Origin: Elmis aenea
Taxonomy: Eukaryota; Arthropoda; Insecta; Coleoptera; Elmidae
Direction: 5' to 3'
Assembly (NCBI GenBank): GCA_947652605.1
Contig: CANTFG010000083.1
Location: forward strand, 1 to 64,000
Length of the DNA stretch: 64,000 nt
Under the pieces are notes generated by a model that saw nothing but the letters and a program-made list of their open reading frames with translations, was not told the DNA's origin and did not search any database. The translations under genes and the position numbers were made by a program. The first letter of the stretch is position 1. The number at the start of each line of letters is the position of its first letter. Positions 11-58,258 of the stretch are shown piece by piece.

Positions 11-760
11 TTACATCCAATCCTTTACACCCTTATATCTTTCTGCATGATTCTGAGCTTCTTTGACAAAATCATCTAATCCATCAGCTGTATCCTTTAT
101 ATACATTCCTGTTATATCTTTACCCATCATTAGATCAATATATCTGCTGGTGGATGCAGTTGAAGTACTTAGATAGTTTTTCTGAATTTCTAGATGATAT
201 CTGACCTGTTCTTGATTTAGGGGGTTCAGAATTACGTGTAACTCTTTTTGTTGGTTGTGGTGCACCCTTCATGGCCTTAAGTTGATTTCTATATATAGTA
301 AAAATATTTTTATAAGTCACATCCCACATCGTATTATCATAAGTTTTTAATAATTTGCCAGCAAGAGGTTGAACTTTGCGAATATCAGGAATACCATTAA
401 TCATAAACCAAGCTTCAAGTTTTGTAGAAGGATCTTTTAAAGCAATATAAAATTGCTCTATAGCAGTAAGAGATACATCTGGTGCTAAATTAATGGGCAA
501 CTTTCTATGAATATGCTTAGCCATATCTACACCATCTTCTTGTCGGCTTTCTTCAAAAACTACTCCTCTTTTATCATCCTTAGATGTAGAGGGTTGATTC
601 ATATAATCATCATGTTGCCCAGATTTGTTCTCTTCATATGCCTTGTCTGATAAGAGTTGTAACAGGAAATTGAATTTCTGTATTCCCTCATTTTGCTTGT
701 TCAGATGGAATTTATTTTGGCATTCTGCTCAATTAACATTTTTTTCATAGTATCATTCAT
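11..760 (-). pseudogene. Unrecognised coding remnant, frameshifted
   Basis: A coding-like stretch on the minus strand starts near 760 with a short helical, charged segment (MNDTMKKMLIEQNAKI). After a break around 700 it continues as a clean 155-codon frame (602-135) rich in Ser/Lys/Glu at its N-terminus, followed by a compact globular-looking part (AWFMINGIPDIRKVQPLAGK, then WDVTYKNIFTIYRNQLKAMK). A second frame (265-11) takes over near its end, so one frameshift around 180-260 is likely. I do not recognise the family. A gag-like or viral structural protein is possible but unsupported. The protein runs to the window edge. Confidence 0.35.
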
Positions 761-897
761 CTTGTCATTAATTTTAAACGTCTATGTAAATGTGTTTTTG
801 TAGTTACTATGCTAAATAACCATAACGTTATTAGAAATACGTAATTAATATATATTGTGTTAATAATAAAAAGGAAACAAAGATTTTTGACATAGAC

Positions 898-1059
898 ATG
901 GCATCGTATTTTAACCATGTGTCTTTTACATTCCTTGAATCATCCTTGTTCAAACAACTAATAATAATATTGTTTCATTCTATCTACATAGCTGTAAGTA
1001 TTTTAATATTAATAATTATAAGTATAGTCATTGTAATTAATTATAACAATAATTTGTAG
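898..1059 (+). CDS. 53-aa membrane micro-ORF (hypothetical)
   Basis: ATG at 898 and TAG at 1057-1059 give 53 codons. The second half is a strongly hydrophobic Ile/Val/Leu run of about 25 residues, which would form one transmembrane helix, ending with a short Asn-rich tail. A stem motif with the order CTGAAGA, paired arms, GAAAC follows three bases after the stop, and AATAAA lies near 1121. It may be the last gene of an unidentified mobile element, but it is short and in AT-rich DNA where Ile/Leu runs arise by chance. Confidence 0.25.
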   Translation: MASYFNHVSFTFLESSLFKQLIIILFHSIYIAVSILILIIISIVIVINYNNNL

Positions 1060-1061
1060 TC

Positions 1062-1099
1062 CTGAAGAAGTCGAAAAACCGAAATCGACGAAACATGTC
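1062..1099 (+). other. Hammerhead-like stem motif
   Basis: CTGAAGA is followed by the perfect arms GTCGA and TCGAC around a 10-base loop, then GAAAC and ATGTC. This is the order of conserved boxes in a minimal hammerhead ribozyme. It departs from the consensus by an extra A before stem II and by poor pairing of helix I. A similar motif lies at the 3' end of the Penelope-like element (55143-55181, minus). Confidence 0.3.
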
Positions 1100-1105
1100 G
1101 GAACA

Positions 1106-1440
1106 TTAAGATAATAGAATCAATAAAAACCTGTTTATAACCAGCAAAAAACTTTTGTTTTTTTTAATTATACATTCAATTAATAAAATAACAGGACAAC
1201 TTAAATTAATCACATTATTTATATCATCAAACATTAATTCGTTATATTTTTGAAAAATCTCGGCTGATATATTTAGACCAAAAGGTAATCTTTTAAAAGA
1301 ATAACATCCAAACATTGTGCTGAACGTACATACATTTTTACTGCTTTCGTCTAACACTATATGCCAAAAGCCATCTTTTAGGTCTAACACACTAAAATAT
1401 TTTGCATCTTTTATTTTGGCAGATAAATCGTTTGACGTGG
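1106..1440 (-). pseudogene. Gypsy-A reverse transcriptase fragment (3' side of LINE insertion)
   Basis: The translation contains AKYFSVLDLKDGFWHIVLDE and FKRLPFGLNISAEIFQK, which are Ty3/gypsy RT motifs: the first catalytic Asp region and the LPFGL box. It is the direct continuation of the gypsy pol at 19240-19850: removing 1441-19225 joins KDYYS to ISTSNDLSAKIKDAKYF. The frame decays below 1210, so the YxDD box and the rest of pol are missing here. Confidence 0.75.
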
Positions 1441-3259: not shown

Positions 3260-4236
3260 CTAATCAGAATCCGATGAAGAACATGAAGAATCACATTGCA
3301 CCAGGCGGTTAGTGTCACTATCTGCTGTAGTTGAAGAACCTGGTTTAAAAAATTGGTCCAATGTTTGTTGTTTAGCTTTCCTGTTTGCTTCCTTTTGCAA
3401 TTCTTTGTAGCAATTAATAGCTGTGTTGATGCTTCGAGTAACTTTGGCGCTGCGTTCTTCGTCGGCATCTGTTTGAAGTAGGATATTTATCCTTTTTTCG
3501 AAATGAGAAAGCGCATTTGATAAATTTTTTGAGGTCAACTGTCGGTTCGTGTTCCTCATCAAATGCATCGTCTAATTGTATTAGTTCTTCGTTTGAAAGA
3601 GGTTTTCTATCTGCATCTAATAAATCTAACACGTCACTTTCTTCCACATTCTCATCAAACAGCTCGTTTGCTAAATGCAAGATGTTTTCTCGAATTTCAA
3701 TTAGATTACAATCAACTTCAGAATTACTGCTAACTTTTACACATTCCGGCCAAATTTTTTTCCAAACGTGGTTCAAAGTGGTTGATTTTACCTCTTGCCA
3801 TGATTCACTTATGTTGTTTACGGCATCTCGTATGTGTAATTTTTCCAAACAATTTTAAGTGATGATTCGAAATCGGTTTCTTTAATAAGTTTTTGGAAAG
3901 TTCTTCGTAAGTAGTATGCGTTGAAAGTAGATATTGCACCTTGATCCATTGGCTGGATTAGGGCTGTTGTATTTTTAGGTAGATATTCAATCTCCACATC
4001 ATCAGATAATTCAGATAAATTAAGTGGATGTCCTGGAGCATTATCCAATAGGAAGGAGCAAGACTTTGTTGCTTAAATTTTTGCCTCGCAAATATTTTTT
4101 CACTTCAGGGCAAAAGCAATTTTTAAACAATAATTCATCGAATATAATTTTGGTCATCCAAGCTTTTTTGTTGGACCTCCAAATGACGGGCAATTTTTCC
4201 TTGTTTAATTTTTTAAAAACTCTTGGATTTTCAGAG
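3260..4236 (-). pseudogene. Tigger-1 transposase, C-terminal part
   Basis: The DDE domain segment includes LDNAPGHPLNLSELSDDVEI and TALIQPMDQGAIST, the second and third catalytic regions of pogo/Tigger transposases. An acidic stretch follows, then a C-terminal tail with TLDQFFKPGSS, a known Tigger/jerky-like end motif. Three overlapping frames are needed (4048-3818, 3848-3414, 3568-3260), so at least two frameshifts are present. The part from 4236 to 4049 is also coding-like (NPRVFKKLNKEKLPVIW). The N-terminal half is at 14904-15670. Confidence 0.8.
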
Positions 4237-4241
4237 GTATA
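4237..4241. repeat. Target-site duplication GTATA, left of gypsy-E
   Basis: GTATA at 4237-4241 is repeated at 14899-14903, directly outside the two 75-bp LTRs. A 5-bp duplication is normal for Ty3/gypsy integrases. Confidence 0.85.
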
Positions 4242-4316
4242 TGTAATAACAATACACGTGTTAAGGTGTCATACTTGATTGTAGGTTATTGTGTAATATG
4301 AGTTTCCTATGTTACA
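4242..4316 (-). repeat. Gypsy-E 3' LTR (75 bp)
   Basis: It starts with TGT and ends with ACA, and matches 14824-14898 except for four substitutions. On the minus strand it lies downstream of the polypurine tract. At 75 bp it is far shorter than usual gypsy LTRs, which run from about 150 bp to over 1 kb. Confidence 0.85.
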
Positions 4317-4325
4317 TCTCCCCTT
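4317..4325 (-). other. Gypsy-E polypurine tract
   Basis: On the minus strand AAGGGGAGA abuts the 3' LTR. This is the expected primer site for plus-strand DNA synthesis and fixes the LTR boundary. Confidence 0.75.
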
Positions 4326-4344
4326 ATCAAACAAATAATTTTAC

Positions 4345-5051
4345 AGGTCCGTCACCTTGGCAGCACCACTTTCTTCAATCATAATAAAATTTATGCTATA
4401 ATTTTTTGCTAATTTTGTGCTATTTTTTGCCGTAAAAATAAAATTTTGTGCCAACTCCAGAAAAAAGTTATAAACAATTTTCACTCGAGGTTGCCAAGGT
4501 GACGCGTAAGCACCACTTTCTCTGAATGAAAATTTGTTTATGCCATAATTTTTTGCTAATTTTGTGCTATTTTTTGCCGTAAAAATAAAATTTTGTGCCA
4601 ACTCCATAACGAAGTTATAAACAATTTTAACCCGGTGCTGCCAAGGTGACGCGTAAGCACCACTTCCTCCGAATGAAAATTTGTTTATGCCATAATTTTT
4701 TGCTAATTTTGTGCTATTTTTTGCCGTAAAAATAAAATTTTGTGCCAACTCCATGACGAAGTTATAAACAATTTTCACCCGGTGCTGCCAAGGTGACGCG
4801 TAAGCACCACTTCCTCCGAATGAAAATTTGTTTATGCCATAATTTTTTGCTAATTTTGTGCTATTTTTTGCCGTAAAAATAAAATTTTGTGCCAACTCCA
4901 TAACGAAGTTATAAACAATTTTCGCCCGGTTCTGCTAAGGTGAAGCGTAAGCACCATCTTTTCTAAATAAAAATTAGTTGCCATAGAGTTGTGCTCTTTT
5001 TTGACCAGAACAAAGTTACAAACAATTCTTTAACTGTAAAACAAAAATTAT
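4345..5051. repeat. NOF-like element, left terminal inverted repeat (147-bp tandem units)
   Basis: Units are spaced exactly 147 bp apart (the GACGCGTAAG box at 4501, 4648 and 4795, with a degenerate copy at 4942). The outermost unit carries a distinct cap with the element end. The inner unit diverges but ends in a segment (about 5029-5051) that reappears inverted at 12373-12395. Because 147 is divisible by three, the array is open in one minus-strand frame (186 codons); I treat that frame as non-coding. Confidence 0.9.
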
Positions 5052-6168
5052 TACTTTTTAAAGCTGTATGGATCAAAAGTAAACATCATATTTCCCACTT
5101 TAAGTTACAGTTTGTTAGTATGCGTCCAATATTTCAGGTGTAATAATGACTATATCGTAAAGATTACTGCCACCTAATCAAAGATACTTTATACCTAGGA
5201 ATAATGAACGAGTTTTATTATATTTTATCATTTATCAATTAAATCATTACACAATATGAAATGGTATAAAGACTGATTGAATTGGGATTGTACATAATGT
5301 TTCATAAATAATTGCTAGAGATGATACTTACCTCTTTACATAATTCACACAAATGAACACAAAACACAATAACAAGTACTTTCTTACAAAGTCGTTACTC
5401 ATAATAGTAACTTTAACTATAAGAACAATCCCATTAATGTAAATAAAAAATGTATAATCTAAATACCAAGTTTATTTAACAAAGCTTTTGATAAACTTTC
5501 CATAAATGTTAAAAGCAAATTAATCTTTCAGTGTTTATAAACCATGAATAACATGATAATGATACAAACATTAAATGTAAAAAATATAAAAGTAAAAATA
5601 TAATATGCATTTGTAAGGAACAATATTAATTTTTCAGCCTAGTTACAGTTTTTTTTTCAATAATGTTTCTTCAATTACATTTTTCAATTTTAATCACATA
5701 TTTGAATTTACCAATTTTAATGGTTCGTCTTGAAGTTAAATATGTTTATCATATTATTGCGTTTAATTTACCTCGCTCATCGGTGAGTATTTAAATAGGT
5801 AAGTATTTTACACATATTATGTATTTTCAATTTATTGATACTGCACTTATACCAACACTGTAATGTTTTGTAGCTACTGATGAAAAGTCCATTAAAGACT
5901 CGAAATATTTGGCTGGTGTAAAGAGTATTCTTTATACGCCATGACCACTGTCCCGTTATTCTCTACATATCATTATTGATTGGTCGTAATCATTGAAATA
6001 TTAATAATAATATAGTAATATTCATAATAATAAAAAAAACATTATAAAAAATAAATAATAATAATAAAAAGAAAAATCAAAGTTATATTAATAATAATAC
6101 ATAATAACAAAAACAATATAATAATACTTAAAACATTGTAACAACATTAGGTCCCTGATACTACAGGT
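5052..6168. other. Non-coding 3' flank inside the NOF-like element
   Basis: This AT-rich stretch has no credible ORF. The 5990-6130 part is low-complexity (ATAATAATA-type). A sequence near 5878-5915 shows CTGATGA, short complementary arms AGTC/GACT and GAAA, superficially hammerhead-like. The poly(A) site of the transposase gene should lie here. Confidence 0.5.
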
Positions 6169-9100
6169 TTATAAGCTGTAAACTAATAAAGGTATCATTA
6201 TTTCAGTATCTGCACGTAACACCTCTACTTTGTCGTTCATGTCGTCATATTTTTCCCATAGGTTTGCCAGTCTCCGACAGCAAACAAAATAGTGACCGAT
6301 TCCTGCTTTGTGTAAAGGCTGAATGAAAGCTATTGCGGACCGTAAATGGTACGAAATTCCCTTTAAAATTATAATTTTTGGAATGTCCTTTAGTGTGCAC
6401 TTTAAAGGAATTTCGTAACCATCGGCATCAAAATTATTTGTGTTTATGTCAATAAAAATTATTTTATTGTATTGCGTTTGCAGGTACACTTCTTTCGCAC
6501 ACTGTTTGCACCTTATATTTTTTTTATTGCAGTCTATGCTGCTTTGCAACTCTGATATACCTGCCTTAGTTAAAATAGCAGCTGAAGGTAATATTAACGG
6601 AAATGAATTGTTATACGCGGTGTCACAATTGTTACAGTTATAAATTTCCAAATAGCTTTTAACATTTAACTGTTTTACCATGTTAGTAACCGTTGTGTCA
6701 CATTTAACTATTTTTATTAAATCTTTAACAACTTCATTCACGAAAATTTTCGATAATATGTCTGCACGCATTTTATACACTTTACTGGTCACGTTTTTTT
6801 TTGATAACAATTTGGCCAGCTCATATAGTTCAAATTGTTCTTCAATTTCAATATCTAAAAGTTTTTTACTGTCGCAAATGCAGGCTGTTAATGAATGAAG
6901 AATACTGTCGAAGGCACACGTATTTGATAAAAGTAAAACCTCGTGTTTGCCATGTCTTGTACACGGTACAGTAATTCTACCGCCATTTTTAATCGGATAT
7001 ATTTTTATATGTTTCCCCAATTCCGATTTTTCGTGAATAGTCATTGTTGACCATTCTTTTTCGGGATTAAGGTAAAAAGACGGTTTCTTTTTTTTCGATT
7101 TATTTGGAGATAATATTTTTCCGGTGGATTCTTCTATCAATGATTTTTCTATGTCACTTATTGTGCCCAATCCTCTCCAGCTCTCTGTTTTATTCAAGTC
7201 TTTAATAGTTTCAGTGTCGATTTCCCAATTTTCTTCCAAATCTTTTAAATCTTCGTCCTCTAAATTGCGAAATTTAAACAAACATTAAAAACACATAATA
7301 AGCATCTATTGTAAAACTTACCTATAACTATAACGTTGCGTTTCACAACATCTGCTTTATATGGACTGCCTTCTGTCGGTGAAGTGGTTGATTTTATTTG
7401 TACTTAAAAGTAAATTGCATAAATTAAATATTTTCATTTATTTTGATTATTAAAATAATTACTTATAGTTACGTGTAAATAAAATAATTAAAGCAAGATT
7501 TAAAATATATACCTTTGTCGTCTTTTTCTTTCACCACCTCTTTTTGTTCTTGAAAGTATGAAAGGCCAGATGCTAGATTTACCGACCCTAAATAAATTAT
7601 AATTTAGTACACAAAAATATCATTGTTTTGTTTGATTGGATTACCTTCAATAGCTTGATAGTGTCTAAAAATAAAATCGTCCACTCTCATAGGAAACTTG
7701 TCTACAAACAGTCTGTTTTTTAAGTCATTAAAATGGCTCTCCACACTAGCCGAACTAGCTGTTAAACTACCATAGCCGAAATGCTTGATCATAATGCCTG
7801 ACCATAGTGGCAACCTATTAAGATTATTATATTTAGAAAGGATGTGTGACAACAGTAGTAAAATTTAGGGTTGTATTACATTTTAAACAATAATCTATTG
7901 AATATAAAAAAGTATAATTTCACTACAAAAAAAAATTAATATGCTATTATTCCATATTGTGGATATATGCTTACCTGTAGCAAAGAATTTTTAATTTATT
8001 TGCCAGCCTTGGCAAATACATTATATTATCGCGGTGACCGCCATTCTCTTGTTCGACTTTTTTTTTTGCCTTCTCACATATATTTCTAACCCAAACCTTC
8101 ATTGGGGAAGAGTTTTCTGATGCATACACATCGTCATCGAAAAGTTCTTCATCAGGGTTGTCCAAATCTATTTGGCTTACCGCTACATCATTTAATTCGC
8201 TTTGTTCTAAACCGTGAGCAAATTTATCAAACAGAAATAGTTTTGCACACTCACATGCAGTCAATTGTCCATTAGGCAATTTTCCTTCATATTCGCTTAA
8301 CGATACAATAAGTAACGACTGCAGGATATGTTTAGCTTCCTCTAAACTTGTGGACAAAACTAATTGTCCTATTCCGCGAATATAAAATTGCCTTATTCGC
8401 TTCCTAGTTGTAGCAGGGTGCAGTTCTCGCCATTTCCCTATAAAGCAAATCAAATGTGCAACATCGATACGGACAAAACATTTTGGTAAACGCGCGATTT
8501 GATTTTTTGTAATAACATTAAAGCAAGCTGTTATGTATTCAGTAGTATTTGTTTCTCCGCTAAAAGCCATACATATGGCAGAAACAAGTGCCGATGAAAA
8601 ATCACATACTACTTCCTTTGGCGGAGTTGCACCTAGCCTTTGCCATTCGTTTAACCAATAGCTTATGGCGTTTGTATGCTGACGTTCTGACAACATCTGA
8701 CAAACTGCAATCTGCCCTTCACTTTCTTTAGGTAATTTAATGACAATTGCGTATAGTAGAATGTGGCCAGAAAATTTTTCGTTTAACAATTTTAATTTCG
8801 TAACCACGCTTCCTGTAGCATCGATATTAATCTTCGAGTATTTTTCTCGTCTACAGTATTCGTTATAAAGTCGTAGTTGACGAGGAGTCCAATAATGTAC
8901 AAAAAATTTGAACTTTCCCACTTCATGAATAACATTTTGGAAAGGATTACTCAATGCAGCTAAACATATCGCCTCAAGGGGATCACTATGTTTTCGAGTG
9001 TTTTGTTTTGATTTATATTTGGCTTTTCTTATAGTATCTGCTTTTGGTATTATTGAAGGTTCTTTTTCAAAAAGGTCAGTATTCCCCTGTGACAATATTC

Positions 9101-9636
9101 TACGAATTTGCATTGGTAACTCACGTTGTTCCAGCATTTGTTTACAAATATCCTTGCGACGTTCTCCTGATAAATTTCGTTTATGTTTATGTTCATGATT
9201 ATGAGGGTCGTTGCCATAAATAACACAATTTAATGTTATTCCGTTTGCAGTAGGATTCAGTGATTCAGAATTCTTAACATACAAAAATATTTTGCAGTTA
9301 CAGTCTACACATTCACCTCGTGCTTTTATAAAATACAATGGGTCTGAAGTTGTGGCTACAACATTGTAAAAAAATTTCCAACAACATGGCAATTTTGTTG
9401 TTAACCATATGCTTTTGGAAAAAATATCAGTCCAGGCTCCTGCTTTTAATCGCATAACCTTTTTTGAATGAACATTTCTTAGATCGTTTCTGGCATGCAT
9501 CTCTTGAGTAGGTTTAAATTTTTCCCATTCTTCGGGAGTGAAATGTAATAAACAATTTTGTTTAAATGGTTGTGACCTAAATTCGTCCTTTATGAAATGG
9601 CCATCGGTTACACTATCACCGCTGGTGATGATGATA

Positions 9637-9668
<32 letters not shown>

Positions 9669-9886
9669 CATGACACATAATTCATTTTATTTATTTTTTT
9701 AAAGTATAGTAACGCATACGTATATAATGTTTTGGCCGAAGCTTTTATGTTATATTTTTTAACTAATTCAATCCACATTGGATTTGATGGTTTAACAACT
9801 TTTCCTTCAACAGCAATAATGTCTTTATTTGATTTTATTAAAGTCTCTATATCCTTTGTTGACTGTTTCGTAGGTCTACCTGCCAT
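6169..9886 (-). CDS. MULE transposase fused to a USP-like cysteine protease domain (six exons)
   Basis: Six exons join in phase at GT-AG sites: 9886-9720, 9621-7975, 7814-7645, 7587-7513, 7402-7322 and 7259-6169. They total 3231 bp, giving 1076 residues with no stop. Residues 1-55 (MAGRPTKQS) look like a small DNA-binding head. About 135-205 hold a Cys/His cluster (CVDCNC, then PHNHEHKHK), like the zinc fingers of FLYWCH/WRKY-GCM1-type MULEs. The transposase core has INIDATGSVV (Asp about 323), VVCDFSSALVSAI (Asp about 396), CFVRIDVAHL, and SASVESHFNDLKNRL (Glu about 630). From about 714 a USP-like domain follows: SNTCAFDSILHSL (Cys about 828), CNNC and CKQC zinc pairs, GIGHYFVCCRR (His about 1036), and LWEKYDDMNDKVEV (Asp about 1052). 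The splice model is my inference; the motifs are seen directly. Separate genes are unlikely because the phases agree at all five junctions. Confidence 0.85.
9624..9669. repeat. ATG/ATC trinucleotide microsatellite in intron 1 of the NOF-like gene
   Basis: About 15 imperfect GAT repeats lie between the exon 1 donor (GTATGC, at 9719) and the exon 2 acceptor (CACCAG, at 9622). Read as coding they would give a poly-Ile N-terminus, which the splice model removes. Confidence 0.8.
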
Positions 9887-12372
9887 TTTGTCCTAAATGT
9901 GGCGATAAAATTAAAATAAAAGTTATTGATCACCAACTAAATGGTCACTACCGAAAAATGTGGTCACTTATAAATTAAGCTAATGTTTAGAACTGTACAC
10001 TATACTAAACTATACACTACACAATAATTTTAGCAAGCTTTTTAAGTCGTTCAATTATATACAGAATAAACAACCTTTAGTCGCTACTGAATCGCTTTTT
10101 TATACGATCACGTTAGTAAAAAGATGATTAGTTGCCAAAAGTTCGCACTAAGTTAACGTTAGTTATGGCACTAATAACAATGATGGCATATTGTAAAACA
10201 CTGTAGCATTCAGTATTCAGTGGCGTGCAGTCCATGAATGCGTTGGATGCAGCGCATCCCTTAAAATTTTGAAATATTTCATACTTCATACATTAATTTA
10301 ATATGTAATTTGTTTTTCTAAAATTTACTTGTAAAGTAATAATTGATTAACTAGTATGTCCATTAAAAGTTACATTTTAAAGTTAAGGGAAAAAAGATAG
10401 TATTTCCCATTTTTCTGACCCCCTCTTTTAAGGTTGTGAATGCGGTGTAGCGCTCCACATCTAGGGCTGGATTCATAGCACAGCTTATTACAGCTCAGGC
10501 ACTCTCAGGCGGCACCTATGATCTTGTCGGTTTGGATCCACTAGCGCTATTTCACTCGCACTGAGCGAAAAAGTCGGGGCCGGACTTAAAATATTTGTAT
10601 ATTATCGCAAATGAGCGATAATAGCGCCGTATTAAAAACTATTTAAACTTTTTTTAAAGAACTTTGGAATAGACGAATAGACATAAACAAAATAAAGAAA
10701 TAGATAGTCGATTTTATATTTAGATTAAAGGAATATTCTACCATCCTCACAAAGCAAAGCACTACTATCAGGTTATTAAATTAACTTTGCATTACGGATA
10801 AATGAAAAATAATGGGGTTCGGTTCTATCTAGATATTTCGGAAAGGATTTAAAAATAAAATTATGAGATATTAATACTTAGATATTTATTACAGTATAAA
10901 ATTGTAATAAAAGTTTACAAAAAAAAAATGGTAACAATATATAACAAAAAAATTAGTGATTACGCCAAATAATTAATTTGTTTTTGTTAATTTTTTTAAA
11001 ATGGCTATTTATAATTTTTAAGGTGAAATAAATTCTTAATCTTAGGTACAACTTTTTAACAAAAACAGTTGGAAAATAAGTACACGGATGAATGAAAGGT
11101 ACAATTTCGCATAATTTAAGTAATTCTTTGCAAACATTACTATTCAGAATGCATTTTTCAAAATTATTTTGAAATATACATTCAATATTTAAAATTAATT
11201 GTACAATCTATTTACAGTCTATTTATATCTACATTTACAATTTCTTAACATTAATATTACAGCTTATTCAACCAAATAATAATACATTTTATTAAAACAG
11301 CTTATCGAATAATAAGAAATATGCTTAGGCAAACATTATTATCTACAAAATGCAGATCTCAAATTTGTATTGCCCATGGACAGACAGTGGGCCACACTTT
11401 AAATGCAAGTTATAATTTAAGTCAATAGTAATAGTAATTAAAAAATCATAAATTATTATGAAATGTAACAAATACCTTTAATTATTTAAGATTTTTGTAT
11501 ATTTAATTAAGTACAGATAGTATATTTTGGAATGTTTTGTTTTGTTTTTCAGTGACCATTTGATTAAACTTAACAACCACAATAATATTGTTTTACTTAT
11601 TTTTAGAGATATACCTAACATCAAACAAACAAAAAATGTCTTTAATGGTGTCACATCCAACTACAACTCTTATTTAAAATAAGAAAGTTGATGGTAAAAT
11701 ACCAAAAACAAATTAAAATAGGTATAATTTATTAACAAATTTCAAATCTACCCAAAAAAGTGTCCTAATGTTAAAAAATATTTTGAGTATGATTTCAAAT
11801 AAGCAAGTTATAGGTAAAAATCGAAAACGTATATTTTTATGAATAGCGCAAATCTTTTTTTTTTTTCTAGATTTTTATCACAGAATAGTCGCTCTTTAAG
11901 CACAGATCGTTTCCACTCGGTTAACCAACTCTGTATCTCTTATCGTTTACAAGATCCCTATGCTGTTTACGATAATCGGGACACCCTGTATACAAACTCA
12001 CCCTGAAAGAGCTCTACATCAGCAACTTTCATATTATATAGGTACATATAATATACCTACATACAAGTATGATGTTAAATTATAGGTACAGGTTGTCCAC
12101 CTATTGTGTATTTCTGTTATATCTGGCTTAAAAGAATAAAAAGAATATTTAACATTTGTTGAAGAGTTTAAGTTCCATAACCTAAAATTATTTTTAGCTA
12201 TACCTACCGAATGTTTTAACATGTTTCTAACATGTGTTTAATGTACTAAAAATTGTCTTGTATACTTAACTCGTATAGTTTTGCATTGGAAAATGTTATT
12301 TAGAACTTTTTGAATTATTAAACAATTTAAAACTTATGGCAAAGACGATAAAATATTGACTGAAATGTAATA
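9887..12372. other. 2.5-kb non-coding 5' flank inside the NOF-like element
   Basis: This is AT-rich and without a supported gene. A less AT-rich part at about 10210-10610 starts CAGTGGCGTGCAGTCC, like hAT transposon ends, and may be a small nested insertion. The segment near 11980-12010 has the CACCCTGTA motif common at the ends of insect repeats. The promoter of the transposase gene should lie just above 9886. Confidence 0.5.
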
Positions 12373-13077
12373 ATTTTTGTTTTACAGTTAAAGTATTGTT
12401 TATAACTTCGTCTTCGAGTTTTAAAAAAAAGTACAACATAATAACACCTAATTTAATTAAAAAAATGGTGCCTAAGCTTGACCTTGAAAGCACCGGGTGA
12501 AAATTGTTTATAACTTCGTTATGGAGTTGGCACAAAATTTTATTTTTACGGCAAAAAATAGCACAAAATTAGCAAAAAATTATGGCATAAACAAATTTTC
12601 ATTCGGAGGAAGTGGTGCTTACGCGTCACCTTGGCAGCACCGGGTGAAAATTGTTTATAACTTCGTCATGGAGTTGGCACAAAATTTTATTTTTACGGCA
12701 AAAAATAGCACAAAATTAGCAAAAAATTATGGCATAAACAAATTTTCATTCGGAGGAAGTGGTGCTTACGCGTCACCTTGGCAGCACCGGGTTAAAATTG
12801 TTTATAACTTCGTTATGGAGTTGGCACAAAATTTTATTTTTACGGCAAAAAATAGCACAAAATTAGCAAAAAATTATGGCATAAACAAATTTTCATTCAG
12901 AGAAAGTGGTGCTTACGCGTCACCTTGGCAACCTCGAGTGAAAATTGTTTATAACTTTTTTCTGGAGTTGGCACAAAATTTTATTTTTACGGCAAAAAAT
13001 AGCACAAAATTAGCAAAAAATTATAGCATAAATTTTATTATGATTGAAGAAAGTGGTGCTGCCAAGGTGACGGACCT
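12373..13077. repeat. NOF-like element, right terminal inverted repeat (147-bp tandem units)
   Basis: This is the inverted counterpart of 4345-5051, with boxes ACGCGTCACC at 12621, 12768 and 12915 (period 147). Where the arms align they are nearly identical, including the GTTATAAAC and TGCCGTAAAAATA blocks. The near identity of the arms suggests either recent insertion or gene conversion between them. Confidence 0.9.
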
Positions 13078-13099
13078 TAATTTTACACTATAATATCTA

Positions 13100-38519: not shown

Positions 38520-41101
38520 GAGGCGTCCGGCTGTAAAACATGTTAAGTAACCAAAAAGAAATTTTACAGGAGAGTAGAAAAGCACTAACAGAACCCCAAA
38601 AAAATTAATTTTAGAGCAAATGGTTTATTATTGTTTATTTCTACATTAAGTTGAAATGGTTCAAGAGGAACGTTTAGGAATGAATGAAAAAATATTTTTT
38701 GCTCCGCTTCTAGGTTGAAAAAAAAACTCAAAAATGTTACTTAACAGGTTATATTTACGTGAAACCCTTAACACAAAAAACTATGCTATGTGACATAAAA
38801 AAAAATAAACAGTTCACAAAAGATAGAAAACTAAAATTGAAAACAAACTAAATCAGTCCTCCCTCTTAAGATTGTAGTAGAAGGCATGATGGATAGGGGG
38901 AATCCATTGTAGGCAGGATAAGACGTGATTCAGCTTTGACTCCTCAATGGGTAAAGCTTCTGCATATTTTTGTTCTAGGGTGACATTGAATCCTTCATCC
39001 CAAGTGGCACTTGGTCTGCCTCTTTTTTTTAATGATATTGTGGTTGCTAACCCACTGTAGGTCCCATAGGCTAACATGGTGAATGGTGTGTCTTCTGAGA
39101 ACTCTAATTTAACCGCTGCACTAATGCTAAAGTTGTTTTTTTCAGTTGATTTTGTATTTTGTTTGAAACACTGTCTTAAATTTGAAAACGCATAGAAATT
39201 TTCTTTCTTCATCGCTGTCACAATGAATGGTATTTTTTTGGTGCAGTTTTGAGAATATTTTCCCACTCCAGTGGAGAATAAACGGCCGAGCATTTTTTAG
39301 AATGCTTCTCTACAAGAGCAAAGTCTCTGTCACTCGGTAACATGGTATGGCCGACCTGTGGAAAAACATGTACTATTTTTTTGAAGCGACCTTTAGACAA
39401 AATGTAAAGCCAAAATGCAACCACTGTCCAATTTTTGTTTTGTCCACAGCAGTTGTCCGACACGGCGTACAAAGTGTCTCCCTTGATATCAAACAATTCG
39501 AAGTACTGGGGCAGACAACTAGCAATCTCGTCAGATCCTCTTTTTGCGGTAGATTCGTTCCAATAAAAAAAGTATCCTCTTTCAGGTTTGTTACAGCAAT
39601 GAATGCTGAAATTGTAAGTCCACATTTTTTTTTTGTAAAAGCAAGGACCTGTAGTCAGTTTGGGCGTTGGTAGCGCTTGTTGTAAGTCAAAAGTAATGAC
39701 ATGAATGTTAGGATTATGTTTTGATTCTTCAACAGCATTGTTGAGGACTGTTCTAGCTGCCTCAGCTTTGCGCAAATGCAACTCTTTTTGTTGTAGAAGA
39801 TTCGATAAGGTTTCCTGATTCCCAGAATCTTTGGCTGCCTTAATATTTACCACGAATTCATCACATTTAGCACACGTATCTGATTTTGGACTCTTAAAAG
39901 AAATGTTAAATTCTTCTGTGAAAAGTCTTCGAAATTTATCTGATGAGACTGCAGTTGTTGCACCTATATCACAGTTTCTCTTGTATTCTTCATAAACAGA
40001 TTCGATTGTGTAGTCTAGGCTCATATATTGTTTATTAGGATTTTTATGTCTGCTATAATGGCTTTCGTATTTGGGTAAAAGTTCTATGAACCGTCTTACA
40101 TTAGCTACGTCTTGCTCAGAATATTTCATTTTGTGATTATGATGTCTTCCTCTCATGTCAGATTGTGGAATAACGTGCCCTTCGCGCAACTGTTGTATAA
40201 TGTATTCAGTACGGCCTCTTCCAATGCCATGAATGGATATAAATGCTTGCTTGCAGATTTTATGACTTGTATTATTGTCTTTGATGGTATACTTAATGGT
40301 ACAGGTTCGCCTTGTATCATGGTTTTGAGTTTTTCTTTTAATAGTTTTTTTTTGAATACATCCAAATAGGTAAGCATTTTAAAGATTACGACTTGCCAGC
40401 GCCCAAAATTCCGAATATATTTTCTGTCGTGTATTTGGAAATACTTTTTCAAAACATTTCAGTTTGCAGTGACACGCTTCACCAGGTTGTTTCTGCACAA
40501 CAGCGCATCCTTTACCACGGTACATTTTATAGCCTTGGCCGCTGTCTTTGAGTTTTTTAATTTTACTTTGTTTACTACACGTTTTCTTCCAGCTTTAGCA
40601 GTTTCATTCTAAAAAAAAATAATACTACTGAAAATCTTTTGTTGCACAATATGTTGCACAAAGAACCTGGTAAGTGAGGAACTTAACAGGTTTTACATGA
40701 AATTGTTAGAAAATGAAACATGTAACAAACCTCATTTGTATTGTCACTATCTAATGATGATTCGCTTTGCACATAGTCCTTATCAGCATCGGAATCATCA
40801 ATTTGTTCATTAGACACATCAAATTGATTATCACTGTCCATTGTTGATAATATCCCGGCAAAACACTATCACATGTTAACTACATCCGCCATGTTTGTTT
40901 GTCACTTAAAAGTTTTTACATGAAAACAGAACCTTTTTGAAGTATTTAACATGGATTCGGTATTATCATATGACGTTATCTATGATGTTTGGATCCAAAT
41001 AACTACAGGAATCGCTAGCTATGATGGTTAACATGTTTTACGTGCAGAAAAGTTCGCATCTAAAAAACTGTTACTTAACAGGTTTTACAGCCGGACGCCT
41101 C
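38520..41101 (-). mobile_element. DUF7869-type DNA element with TIRs
   Basis: The ends are inverted: GAGGCGTCCGGCTGTAAAAC at 38520 and its complement ending at 41101, followed inward by TGTTAAGTAAC. The flanks give ATC at 38517-38519 and 41102-41104. An inner box of the type ACTTAACAGGTTTTACATG recurs near both ends (38745, 40680, 40905, 41067). The only gene is the DUF7869-like protein. The element is inserted in a hAT relic. Confidence 0.75.
38853..40841 (-). pseudogene. DUF7869-family transposase-like protein, frameshifted
   Basis: Exon 1 (40841 to about 40732) is acidic (MDSDNQFDVSNEQIDDSDAD) and is followed by a GT-AG intron and a basic exon (NETAKAGRKRVVNKVKLKN). A Cys/His cluster follows (EACHCKLKCFEKVFPNTRQK), then the large part at 40189-39218. 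That part has FKSPKSDTCAKCDEF, VITFDLQQALPTPKL, the YSDxCGGQN-type AVSDNCCGQNKNW, GHTMLPSDRDFALVEK and a C-terminal frame (39293-38853) with KKRGRPSATWDEGF. These blocks define an insect family annotated as DUF7869, presumed transposases. Breaks near 40450, 40180 and 39240 make it non-functional. Confidence 0.75.
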
Positions 41102-55099: not shown

Positions 55100-56350
55100 A
55101 CAATCTTCGTTCCCGGGTTTGGAACCGCGTCTTCTTGATTTGTGTGACGTTTCGACCATTCTATGTTGGTCTTTATCAAACGACTGAATTGGTGGGTTTG
55201 TTGCAGGGTTTATATATCCGGCTGTGGAGGCGTGGTGTTCCGCCTGACGAGTTCGTTTCGCCTCAGCGATTTCTTGATGACCGGTTTCCAAATGCTTGGT
55301 AGTTGCAGGCCTGTGTCTCTGTTAAAGTTGTTGGGGTTCTTGGCAATTTCCATAGATTCTCTAAATAGTCTCGGCCAGAAGTGGTTGGCGCGGGCCAGTA
55401 ATTTTGGGTCGTCGAAAAGCATGGTATGCCCCATGTCCTGGGCATGTTCTGCTACGGCCGATTTTTCTATTTGTTTTCTTTTTGTTTACCCTTCATGTTC
55501 TTTAAGGCGCGTTTGTATGCTTCTGCCAGTCTGTCCTATATACACTTTTCCACAGGAGCAGGGTATGCTATATATGCCCGGGTGATTCAATCCTGAGCCA
55601 GGCGTTCTTCTTAGTTTACTGGAGAGCGTCACTGGAGCGTTGAAGACTGTATTGATGTTGTGTTTTTGGAGTATTTTCGATATTCTGTTGGTTACTCCTC
55701 CGATGTAGGGTAGATAAGTTGTAGCGATGTAGTCCTTCTTCGTTTTCTCCTTCGGCGTGGCACTTTTTTGTATGGCTCGAAGTATATGTCTTTGTTGATA
55801 ACCGTTTTCCTGCAGAGCTCTTGTAAGCATGTTTAATTCTTCTTGTATGGTCTCTGGGGTACATATTTCTTTGGCTCTGTGGATTAACGTGTTGATCACT
55901 GATTGTTTTTGGGCCGGATGGTGGTGTTATGCTGCGTTTAGATACCGATTGGTGTGGGTTGATTTGCGGTATACACTGTGGCCTAGTCTTCCGTTGGCTT
56001 CTCTTTTCACCAGTACGTCCAGGAAAGGTAAAGCTCCATCCTGCTCTTCCTCCATCGTGACTTTGATGTCCTTGTGCAAGTTGCTCAGATGTACTAAGAA
56101 GTTCTGGAGTGATTCTCTGCCGTGTTCCTAAATGACGAAGGTGTCATCTACATATCGAAACCAGTGTTTAGGCTTTAATCTACTGGAGTGTATGGCTTGC
56201 TCTTCGAAGGCTTCCATATACAGGTTGGCAAGTGCTGGTGATAATGGTGATCCCATTGCTGCTCCCGTGTTTTGCTTATAGATGCCTTCCTCAAAGGTGA
56301 AGTAGGTGGACTGTGCGCATAGTTGTATTAGATCGGCTAGGTTGCCATCG
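55100..56350 (-). mobile_element. Penelope-like element, 3' half (RT palm, GIY-YIG endonuclease, 3' end)
   Basis: From 56350 the sense strand reads DLADLIQLCAQSTYFTFEEG, TGAAMGSPLSPALANLYMEA, KHWFRYVDDTFVI (the catalytic YVDD), LPFLDVLVKREANGRLG and VYRKSTHTNRYLNA. The frame 55899-55486 follows with GIYSIPCSCGKVYIGQTGRS and RLKEHEG, the GIY-YIG endonuclease with its zinc-type Cys pair. Further C-terminal text continues to about 55210. The 3' end carries a hammerhead-like motif at 55143-55181. Stops near 56130 and 55925 and shifts make it non-functional. Confidence 0.9.
55143..55181 (-). other. Hammerhead-like motif at the 3' end of the Penelope-like element
   Basis: On the minus strand TTTGATAAA is followed by arms GACCA and TGGTC, then GAAACGTCAC. 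Hammerhead motifs are known in Penelope-like elements. The CUGAUGA box is degenerate here, so self-cleavage is doubtful. Confidence 0.5.
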
Positions 56351-57407
56351 AGATCATTCCATTCTGCCTGTTACAAACAAGCATTCCTTTGGTTCCCACA
56401 GATTCAAAATTTACTGGGAGCGTAAAGTATTTTGGAGCTTTACGGTTTACAAAGTGCATAATCCCAGTAATATCTTCATAATCTCCGATCAAATCTAATG
56501 TCCCGTAGTTTTCGGGAATAATCTCATCTGGATTCATTAAGACCGGATTCTCAATATCACCATTCCAAATTGCGCCGGGAATGGGATTATTATTATAAAA
56601 CCTTCTTCTATATTGAAGAGGTGTAAGTCTATTTGCTAATGCGATCACTGTATAACGCAAATTACTGTAGCAATTTTGTTCAGACTGGGGGAGGAACTGA
56701 CCCCTTCGGTCTGTCCTATCACTAGCTAATCTAGGAATATACGTCTTCTCTCCAACTTGGAGGTTGCCAAGGACAGAAAGTGTAGATGTAATATAATCGG
56801 GCATAATGGTAAAGCCCTTTACAGCAGAAACCAAATCTTCACTGACTATCAACGGTCGATAGTCTGAATTATGTAGTTGCATAGCATGTGTAGCTCGTTG
56901 ACCTATCTTAATTTTAACTTCAAAAATGGCTAATGCTACTCTATAAAATTGGTAAATGCTCCCTTGAACTGGAGCGTTGTTAAATGAGACTAAGGCGCTG
57001 AAAAAGTATGCTGTGCCAAAGCCAATAGCGCGTGTGGTCACTGTAATCGTTATGGCTTTCATGGTATTGTAAGAGTCCAAACGATCTTGAGCGCTTTCAC
57101 CTTTAGTACCTGGGAATAATTTCTTTTTCAATTCCTCAGATAAGTCGTTTTCTGTAATCATTGATTTTTCCCTTCGTTGGGCGATCACACGACTTTCGTT
57201 TCTGCTAAAGTTTCCTCTTCCTCTATTCTTTGTTGATTTGCCGCGAGAATAACGGCTTAAGCTGTCTGCTTCGACTAGCTTTCTCTGCTCTCCATATCTT
57301 TGAGCAGGATCATCGTACGCATGGGTAGCTCTGAATCTATTTCGATTCTCGCGGAAGGACATTTTGATCTTATTGGCCTGGAAATCCAAGTGCCTAAAAA
57401 TCATCAC
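56345..57407 (-). CDS. Unrecognised protein inserted between the two Penelope halves; possible endogenous viral fragment
   Basis: An uninterrupted frame of about 340 codons starts most likely at the Met at 57362, after a short leader. Residues 1-75 are Arg/Asn/Ser-rich and basic (RENRNRFR, RGRGNF). The remainder is a folded, Tyr/Asn-rich domain with no catalytic motif I recognise and no transmembrane segment. A basic tail before a globular domain is common in RNA-virus capsid or nucleoproteins, but I cannot name a family. The 3' edge fuses with Penelope sequence near 56360, and the 5' edge lies at the inverted Penelope half near 57410. Composition differs from the AT-rich surroundings. A host cDNA is the alternative. 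Confidence 0.5.
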
Positions 57408-57409
57408 AA

Positions 57410-58258
57410 CATCAACAAAAACCTCAACTGGATACCAATCGGGTCGTGATCAACTTATCATCCGCCACACTAGACGAGACGAGCAAGACGGTTCTAAGCA
57501 AAGGATTCAACTTCGCTGTTCCTCCAAAACGTATACCTAATGAGGAAATTGTGAGTCAACTAGAGTGCACTCTCCGCAACCTTCCCACGGACAACGCTGA
57601 AGAAATAAGAGCAGCAACGGCACTTATCCTTAGTAAGGCCAAACCACCAAAACAAAATATAACCAAAGAAGAAGAACAGGCCGCCAAGAATCTACGCGAT
57701 AATCCGAACATTAAAATTCTACCTGCCGATAAAGGCAATGCCACCGTAATTATGGACAGCACAGAATATAACAGAAAAGTCTTCGACATGCTTCAAGATT
57801 CTACGTACCGAAAATTGAAGAAGGACCCCACCAAGAACATAGAACGGCAGATCAAGGCAGCGGTAAAAACCTCATCCATTCCAACGGAACACCACAGAAG
57901 CCTAACACCAACCGAATGCAGAACACCAAAACTGTATTGCCTACCGAAAATCCACAAACAAGACGTACCGCTAAGACCAATAGTGAGCGCCATTGGATCA
58001 GCAACCCACCCTCTTGCCAGATATCTCGCCAGGACACTGCAAAACTTCATTGGACAATCGGATCATCATATTCGAAACTCAACTCATTTCATTCAGAAAC
58101 TACACCTGCTCGACATAAACGACAACGACATCATGGTCAGCTTCGACGTTACATCATTATTTACCAATATACCGGTATTAGAAGCAGTGGAATTGGCAAG
58201 GGAACTACTGATTTCAAATGATCTCGATGTGAATACTCTTGATTTTCCATTTGTATGA
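57410..58258 (+). pseudogene. Penelope-like element, 5' half, inverted
   Basis: The 270-codon plus frame reads LSSATLDETSKTVLSKGFNF, VPPKRIPNEEIVSQLECTLR, NIKILPADKGNATVIMDSTE, PKLYCLPKIHKQDVPLRPIV and IMVSFDVTSLFTNIPVLEAV. These are the N-terminal and finger motifs of Penelope RT with the first catalytic Asp (FDVTSLF). It ends ARELLISNDL, just where the minus half begins with DLADLIQLC, so the two halves add up to one element. Confidence 0.9.

Follow-up and report, generated by a model that had tools for sequence, protein, structure and literature searches.

A USP-class domain on the transposase polypeptide of foldback-type elements in the beetle Elmis aenea

Can a transposase carry a deubiquitinase of the USP class on its own polypeptide, and is the copy that raises this question an intact gene? 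The locus lies in a stretch of 64,000 nucleotides from Elmis aenea (contig CANTFG010000083.1, positions 1 to 64,000; hereafter the window), in which the original prediction placed an intact transposase-deubiquitinase gene of six exons and 1077 codons within a foldback-type element. By eye, the entire window is crowded with fragments of mobile elements, presumably piggyBac-, Harbinger-, pogo- and Gypsy-like to judge from their motifs. Its minus strand also holds a 386-codon frame with a match to DUF7869 (39221-40378, E=4.3e-10) and a 370-codon open frame (56340-57449) for which Pfam gave no match at E<=0.01.

What are the limits of the element? Long terminal inverted repeats (TIRs) built of tandem repeats, the structural hallmark of foldback elements, enclose the gene, and the predicted target-site duplication (TSD) is indeed there, 9 bp long and matching at nine of nine positions between the two sides (Table 1). 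From this perfect duplication, together with TIRs that are identical over their first 550 nt, we infer a recent insertion.

Table 1. Coordinates of the element, its gene and its terminal modules (positions in the window unless a locus is named).
Feature	Position	Strand	Details
Whole foldback-type element	4345..13077		8733 bp; terminal motif AGGTCC...GGACCT on both ends
Left TSD	4336..4344	+	TAATTTTAC
Right TSD	13078..13086	+	TAATTTTAC
Left TIR	4345..4962	+	618 nt; about 3.9 tandem 147-bp modules at 4390-4956
Right TIR	12460..13077	-	618 nt; 99% complementary to left TIR; 147-bp modules at 12466-13032
147-bp TIR modules, three families	window 4390-4956 and 12466-13032; L009 412-980; L045 1204-1555		
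Exon 1, N-terminal 55 codons (MAGRPTK...)	9720..9886	-	homologous to copies L010 and L011
Intron 1 of the original prediction, judged a damaged coding stretch	9622..9719	-	microsatellite 9626-9673, stop, frame change
Exon 2, DDE transposase core	7975..9621	-	zinc-type CxxC 9317-9291; D1 (D323) 8822-8820; D2 (D396) 8603-8601; DxxH (H445) 8456-8454
Exon 3, Glu box SSASVESHFNDLK	7645..7814	-	E630 at 7741-7739; contiguous in relatives without the preceding intron
Exon 4, linker	7513..7587	-	5' junction backed by family B (by eye)
Exon 5, linker, predicted	7322..7372	-	alternative acceptor 7402; from splice-site list and gene model
Exon 6, USP-type domain	6169..7259	-	Cys box 6927-6904 (C818); CxxC 6639-6622 and 6513-6493; His box 6297-6271 (H1026); Asp box 6258-6241 (D1042); stop codon

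A minus-strand model of six exons with GT-AG junctions does join in phase, and it comprises 1066 codons and a stop; the ten extra codons of the earlier model we infer to reflect use of the acceptor at 7402 in place of 7372. The residues first listed as Cys828, His1036 and Asp1052 are Cys818, His1026 and Asp1042 in the 1066-codon model. Both sets of motifs are located as predicted. Those of the transposase come first, in the order CxxC zinc-type pair, IDATG (D323), VVCD (D396), RIDVAH (H445) and SVESHF (E630), and downstream of them follow the USP-like boxes NTCAFD (C818), two CxxC pairs, GHY (H1026) and YDD (D1042). Alignments inspected by eye back the placement of introns 2 and 3, through family B (L009) and through relatives whose frame continues unbroken there; introns 4 and 5 are predicted. 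Donor scores for introns 2 to 5 are 7.6, 2.1, 1.4 and 6.4; that of intron 1 is -2.1.

It is this first intron that is doubtful. Sister copies of the window family occur elsewhere in the 516-Mb genome, and three of them were compared (L007, L010 and L011). The donor GT is absent from all three, and the supposed intron is an open coding frame in two (L007, L011) and is frame-shifted in L010 by a short length difference. At the same place the window copy combines an expanded trinucleotide repeat with a stop in frame and a shift to another frame. No intron interrupts this place in families B, C, D and J; family E has a possible intron nearby, its N-terminal exon lying apart in L026. Because the donor is missing from every sister and scores poorly, the frame is open in two of them, and repeat, stop and frame change coincide, we regard intron 1 as an artefact that damage has produced. 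The window copy would then be N-terminally damaged, probably, and neither the claim of five introns nor that of an intact gene is supported by the comparison with its sisters. Could the copy nevertheless be intact, a new intron having arisen at 9719-9622 that hides the microsatellite? An in-phase GT-AG pair is present, its acceptor is good (3.9), and the donors of introns 3 and 4 are likewise moderate, yet the donor score, the lack of the GT in the sisters and their open coding frames make a new intron unlikely. Taking intron 1 as damage, the window copy would more probably serve as a passive substrate than supply transposase at present. More generally, calls of intactness made from one isolated copy need to be checked against sister copies. 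Two of the sisters, L010 (approximately 4510-5649) and L011 (approximately 4138-5273), have in common an internal deletion, across which the transposase start runs directly into the USP end, and hence look like one non-autonomous subfamily.

Does the fusion itself hinge on guesses about splicing? The joining of transposase and USP-type domain on one polypeptide is real irrespective of them, because the same genome has both halves in one open frame: the transposase core and the USP are read without interruption in L020, L022 and L023 (1012 codons), L025 and L026 (971), L028 (927) and L032 (1045). Further copies of these single-frame families are interrupted, for example L021 and L038/L039. A genome search with the exon-2 protein returned 52 matches at E<=1, of which 30 had their loci examined and 20 weaker ones lay outside the survey. 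The USP-domain alignment shows the Cys box NTCAFD in eight families of this one genome; three more families showed no USP within the available flank, which is short for L030/L031 and spans 4.3 kb for L042, the third being L043.

The same fusion, for which the original prediction had proposed a search of other genomes, also turned up in the protein database, where proteins of 1077 and 1104 aa contain both halves. A profile search gave 39 relatives, many of them short or cut off; by pattern, the Cys box was found in 14 and both boxes in 3, and P0019 and P0026 have a variant of the His box that was recognized by eye. P0026, from Megalurothrips, combines the transposase with the Cys box under the UniRef name 'USP domain-containing', and P0001, from Macrosiphum, has the end of the transposase and, by eye, the whole USP. 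The Cys box was not found in the pieces from Carabus, Aphis and Homalodisca. Searched by itself, the spliced window protein had zero matches in the protein database; the USP exon matched nothing among viral contigs, and exon 2 had no confirmed match among viral and GTDB contigs.

How often was the USP acquired? Trees of the two halves agree on the pairing of families A and B (support 100/100 and 100/99). Beyond that they part, F going with J in the USP tree (82/83) but with E in the transposase tree (98/97), and three of the five inner branches of the USP tree are open. A single acquisition is thus not proven.

Is the C-terminal domain truly of the USP (Peptidase C19) class? By sequence, the assignment is solid, and it comes from the family. 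A profile of 15 family sequences matched the solved structure of USP8 at E=1.2e-7; of its 39 matches in the PDB at E<=1, 37 belong to the USP family and two are unrelated. The best E value improved as the profile grew, from 0.007 with 8 sequences to 0.0016 with 14 (25 of 26 matches being USPs) and to the final figure with the 15, more diverse, sequences. Cys box, fingers, His box and Asp box align to USP8 in the right order, and as a negative control the USP profile did not match the MULE profile. For the window exon, the assignment holds because the family profile supports it; alone, the exon falls short, having a single chance match in PDB that is no USP and a Pfam UCH match at E=0.51, below the cut-off. 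The outcome with Pfam UCH was divided: family D (30.5 bits) and the database protein P0002 (27.3) do pass the cut-off of 23.9 bits. Three of the 8 aligned members matched UCH at E<=0.1, one of them above the cut-off, and five were missed; among 9 longer relatives, three stayed below the cut-off and six had no match at E<=0.01.

The residues expected of a thiol isopeptidase are well kept. Invariant positions make up 26 of the 334 examined columns. They include the Cys and the His, all but one of the four zinc cysteines and, in the Asp box, the second D. N-T-C stands near the N-terminus of the domain in eight of eight families, G-H in 7/7 and D/N-D in 6/6 of the rows with letters there; D1042, the first D of the Asp box, is D in five of six rows and N in one. 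The His box is in frame in six of eight aligned copies, lying beyond a frame break in C and being cut by a stop in K. In the fingers, which align to those of USP8, C217, C220 and C262 are invariant and C259 is kept in 4/8. Two AlphaFold models had mean pLDDT values of 40.6 and 29.8, too low for a reading of the active site. As an alternative identity, a VTD deubiquitinase was considered and rejected: the His box IGHYFVCC is without an Asp two residues before the His, and the Asp lies 16 residues after it.

And what kind of transposase is it? The original prediction called it Mutator-type. In favor of that, the window transposase and its relatives conserve the motifs D, D, [C/D]xxH and E, a probable match to the order that characterizes the RNase H-like core of MULE transposases. 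TSDs of 9 bp were found in A and D, the two families with both ends read, and fit the 8-10 bp expected of MULEs; a profile-profile comparison with MULEs of the same genome gave a match that is weak (E=0.067) and has D2 and the xxH in register. Pfam did not recognize it: the MULE profile PF10551 had no match at E<=1 in the window protein and seven related transposases, although it matches at least 74 places elsewhere in this genome. A zinc module related to PHD was identified in family B, in L009, as Znf_SCAND3 (E=2.9e-7), and one was noted by eye in L044 of family C; no PHD-type finger was seen in the window protein. The 9-bp TSDs and the in-register match fit the MULE-related Rehavkus/NOF group, and these elements are probably the closest kin, Rehavkus being compared by description only. 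L043 and L042 group outside the USP-bearing families (100/100, midpoint root). In L043, an open reading frame at 13-1173 (minus) with YqaJ recombinase (9.1e-16) and Peptidase_C48/Ulp1 (9.8e-5) matches adjoins a transposase of 978 codons. With Ulp1 beside this transposase and no USP in its flank, isopeptidase types seem exchangeable within the group, as far as one locus can suggest.

Was the USP half kept by selection? The USP stretches of the window copy and L010, summed over two blocks, are separated by 14 synonymous changes on 107 sites and 8 non-synonymous ones on 427. Under neutrality the ratio would be turned round, at about four non-synonymous to one synonymous (P=1e-5 by a simple neutral count on one pair with 22 changes, transition bias ignored). 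L011 shares the deletion of L010 and is not independent of it. Synonymous divergence between families A and B is saturated, and within families D and E there were too few changes for dN/dS to be of use. Purifying selection, for which the original prediction had argued from the complete frame and the matched TSD, is supported over the long term for the USP half.

To what end, then, would a transposase keep a USP? In the explanation that we favor, at roughly even chances, the window element is a recently inserted, probably N-terminally damaged member of a Rehavkus/NOF-like foldback lineage whose transposase has a built-in USP, and this USP protects the transposase or its partners from ubiquitin-dependent loss. 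The USP half would be an active thiol isopeptidase; working in cis or locally, it would strip ubiquitin off the transposase and the proteins of the transposition complex, and the transposase would thereby escape proteasomal turnover long enough to act. Catalytic residues kept across families and purifying selection on the USP half both argue for it, and the Ulp1 and YqaJ frame next to the L043 transposase looks as if an isopeptidase of some type were useful. In the outgroup L042 no isopeptidase was seen in the 4.3 kb examined, so the function may not be universal.

The domain might instead target chromatin or repair factors, for example ubiquitinated H2A, H2B or PCNA, at either the donor or the target site. 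It would then ease access or guide repair, and leave the transposase itself alone. The transposase would bring the domain to DNA, a PHD-like/Znf_SCAND3 zinc module stands directly before the USP in L009 and, by eye, in L044, and in L043 the exonuclease-type YqaJ domain next to Ulp1 points to DNA processing. A repair role for Ulp1 and OTU domains in transposases was also proposed in the 2010 Ginger paper, in the portion of its text available (PMC2836005). Exon 6 of the window is without the zinc module, and we consider action on chromatin possible, if on the unlikely side. Cleavage of a ubiquitin-like modifier such as SUMO, as performed by USPL1, appears more doubtful: USPL1 is among the weak PDB matches (E ~0.06) and Ulp1, of the SUMO-protease family, lies beside the sister transposase, but the best matches, CxxC fingers included, are to USP8, USP15 and USP2. 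The divergent sequence, and AlphaFold models too poor to show an active site, might suggest a relic that has lost catalysis or a module that does no more than bind ubiquitin. Such a reading is very improbable in view of the selection and of a Cys, His and Asp/Asn kept in 8/8, 7/7 and 6/6 rows.

Families A, B and D have the terminal motif AGGTCCGT in common, and in all three an inverted copy of the family's own terminal core (at least 12 of 16 bases) is found at 143/144 and 290/291, a period of 147 bp. A and B have it at 438 and 585 too, and B shows one more weak match at 15. A and B also share a 33-base block, the first modules of A and D have no match beyond 9 bases, and one D module measures about 155 bp. 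An inverted core that keeps its spot in such dissimilar modules suggests constraint on the spacing, perhaps for binding sites on one face of the helix or for the length of a nucleosome. Carried further, this would give a foldback lineage tuned to ubiquitinated chromatin, with a USP (Ulp1 in the sister lineage) and with modules mostly of exactly 147 bp, one nucleosome core length, each bearing an inverted terminal core, so that the transposase-deubiquitinase acts on phased nucleosomes over the ends; we regard so elaborate a scheme as very unlikely.

The fusion is one polypeptide in which ubiquitin control can be tested by a single catalytic mutation. Isopeptidases that form part of MULE-like transposases now include the USP class, found in one genome in eight families and also in the aphid and thrips proteins named above. 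Seen alongside Ulp1, OTU and VTD in other transposons, this points to a general contest over the control of transposition by ubiquitin.

How do these elements compare with systems already described? In the foldback element FB-NOF of Drosophila, a single large gene lies between long TIRs that contain tandem repeats. The window element is built likewise. Transposases with built-in isopeptidases are already established, and what is added here is, from the sequences, a USP in a MULE-like/foldback transposase; the literature searched, mostly without subscription papers, held no description of a USP in a MULE or foldback element. Rehavkus, known from Repbase only, is described from arthropods and annelids with a 9-bp TSD, a PHD finger, a minisatellite and TIRs of 26-400 bp (PMC6446971). 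It resembles the elements reported here in its arthropod host, 9-bp TSD, MULE-related DDE transposase and minisatellite repeats, and some families here have a PHD-type zinc module; its TIRs differ from the 618 nt of the window element, and in the accessible text no protease is mentioned for it (PMC6446971). The words protease and ubiquitin are absent from the main texts of both PMC6446971 and PMC13359780.

For USP-transposase fusions in general, the original prediction knew of no precedent, but one exists in a Trichomonas protein, XP_001314237.1, which has both parts. Its transposase_11 domain is presumably IS5-like. As listed in the available part of the 2010 Ginger paper, this protein consists of transposase_11 and Peptidase C19 (PMC2836005); it shares with our elements a USP-class peptidase on a DNA transposase and differs in being a transposase_11 protist protein, not a MULE or foldback one. 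The same source (PMC2836005) describes Ulp1 or OTU domains on Mutator and Ginger1 transposases, again a thiol isopeptidase on the transposase, but of another protease family. Helitrons encode VTD and OTU deubiquitinases for which a protective role has been proposed (PMC9741609). They too are transposons that carry a deubiquitinase, though of a different transposon class, and the Asp-x-His motif of VTD (PMC9741609) contrasts with the window USP, whose Asp follows the His.
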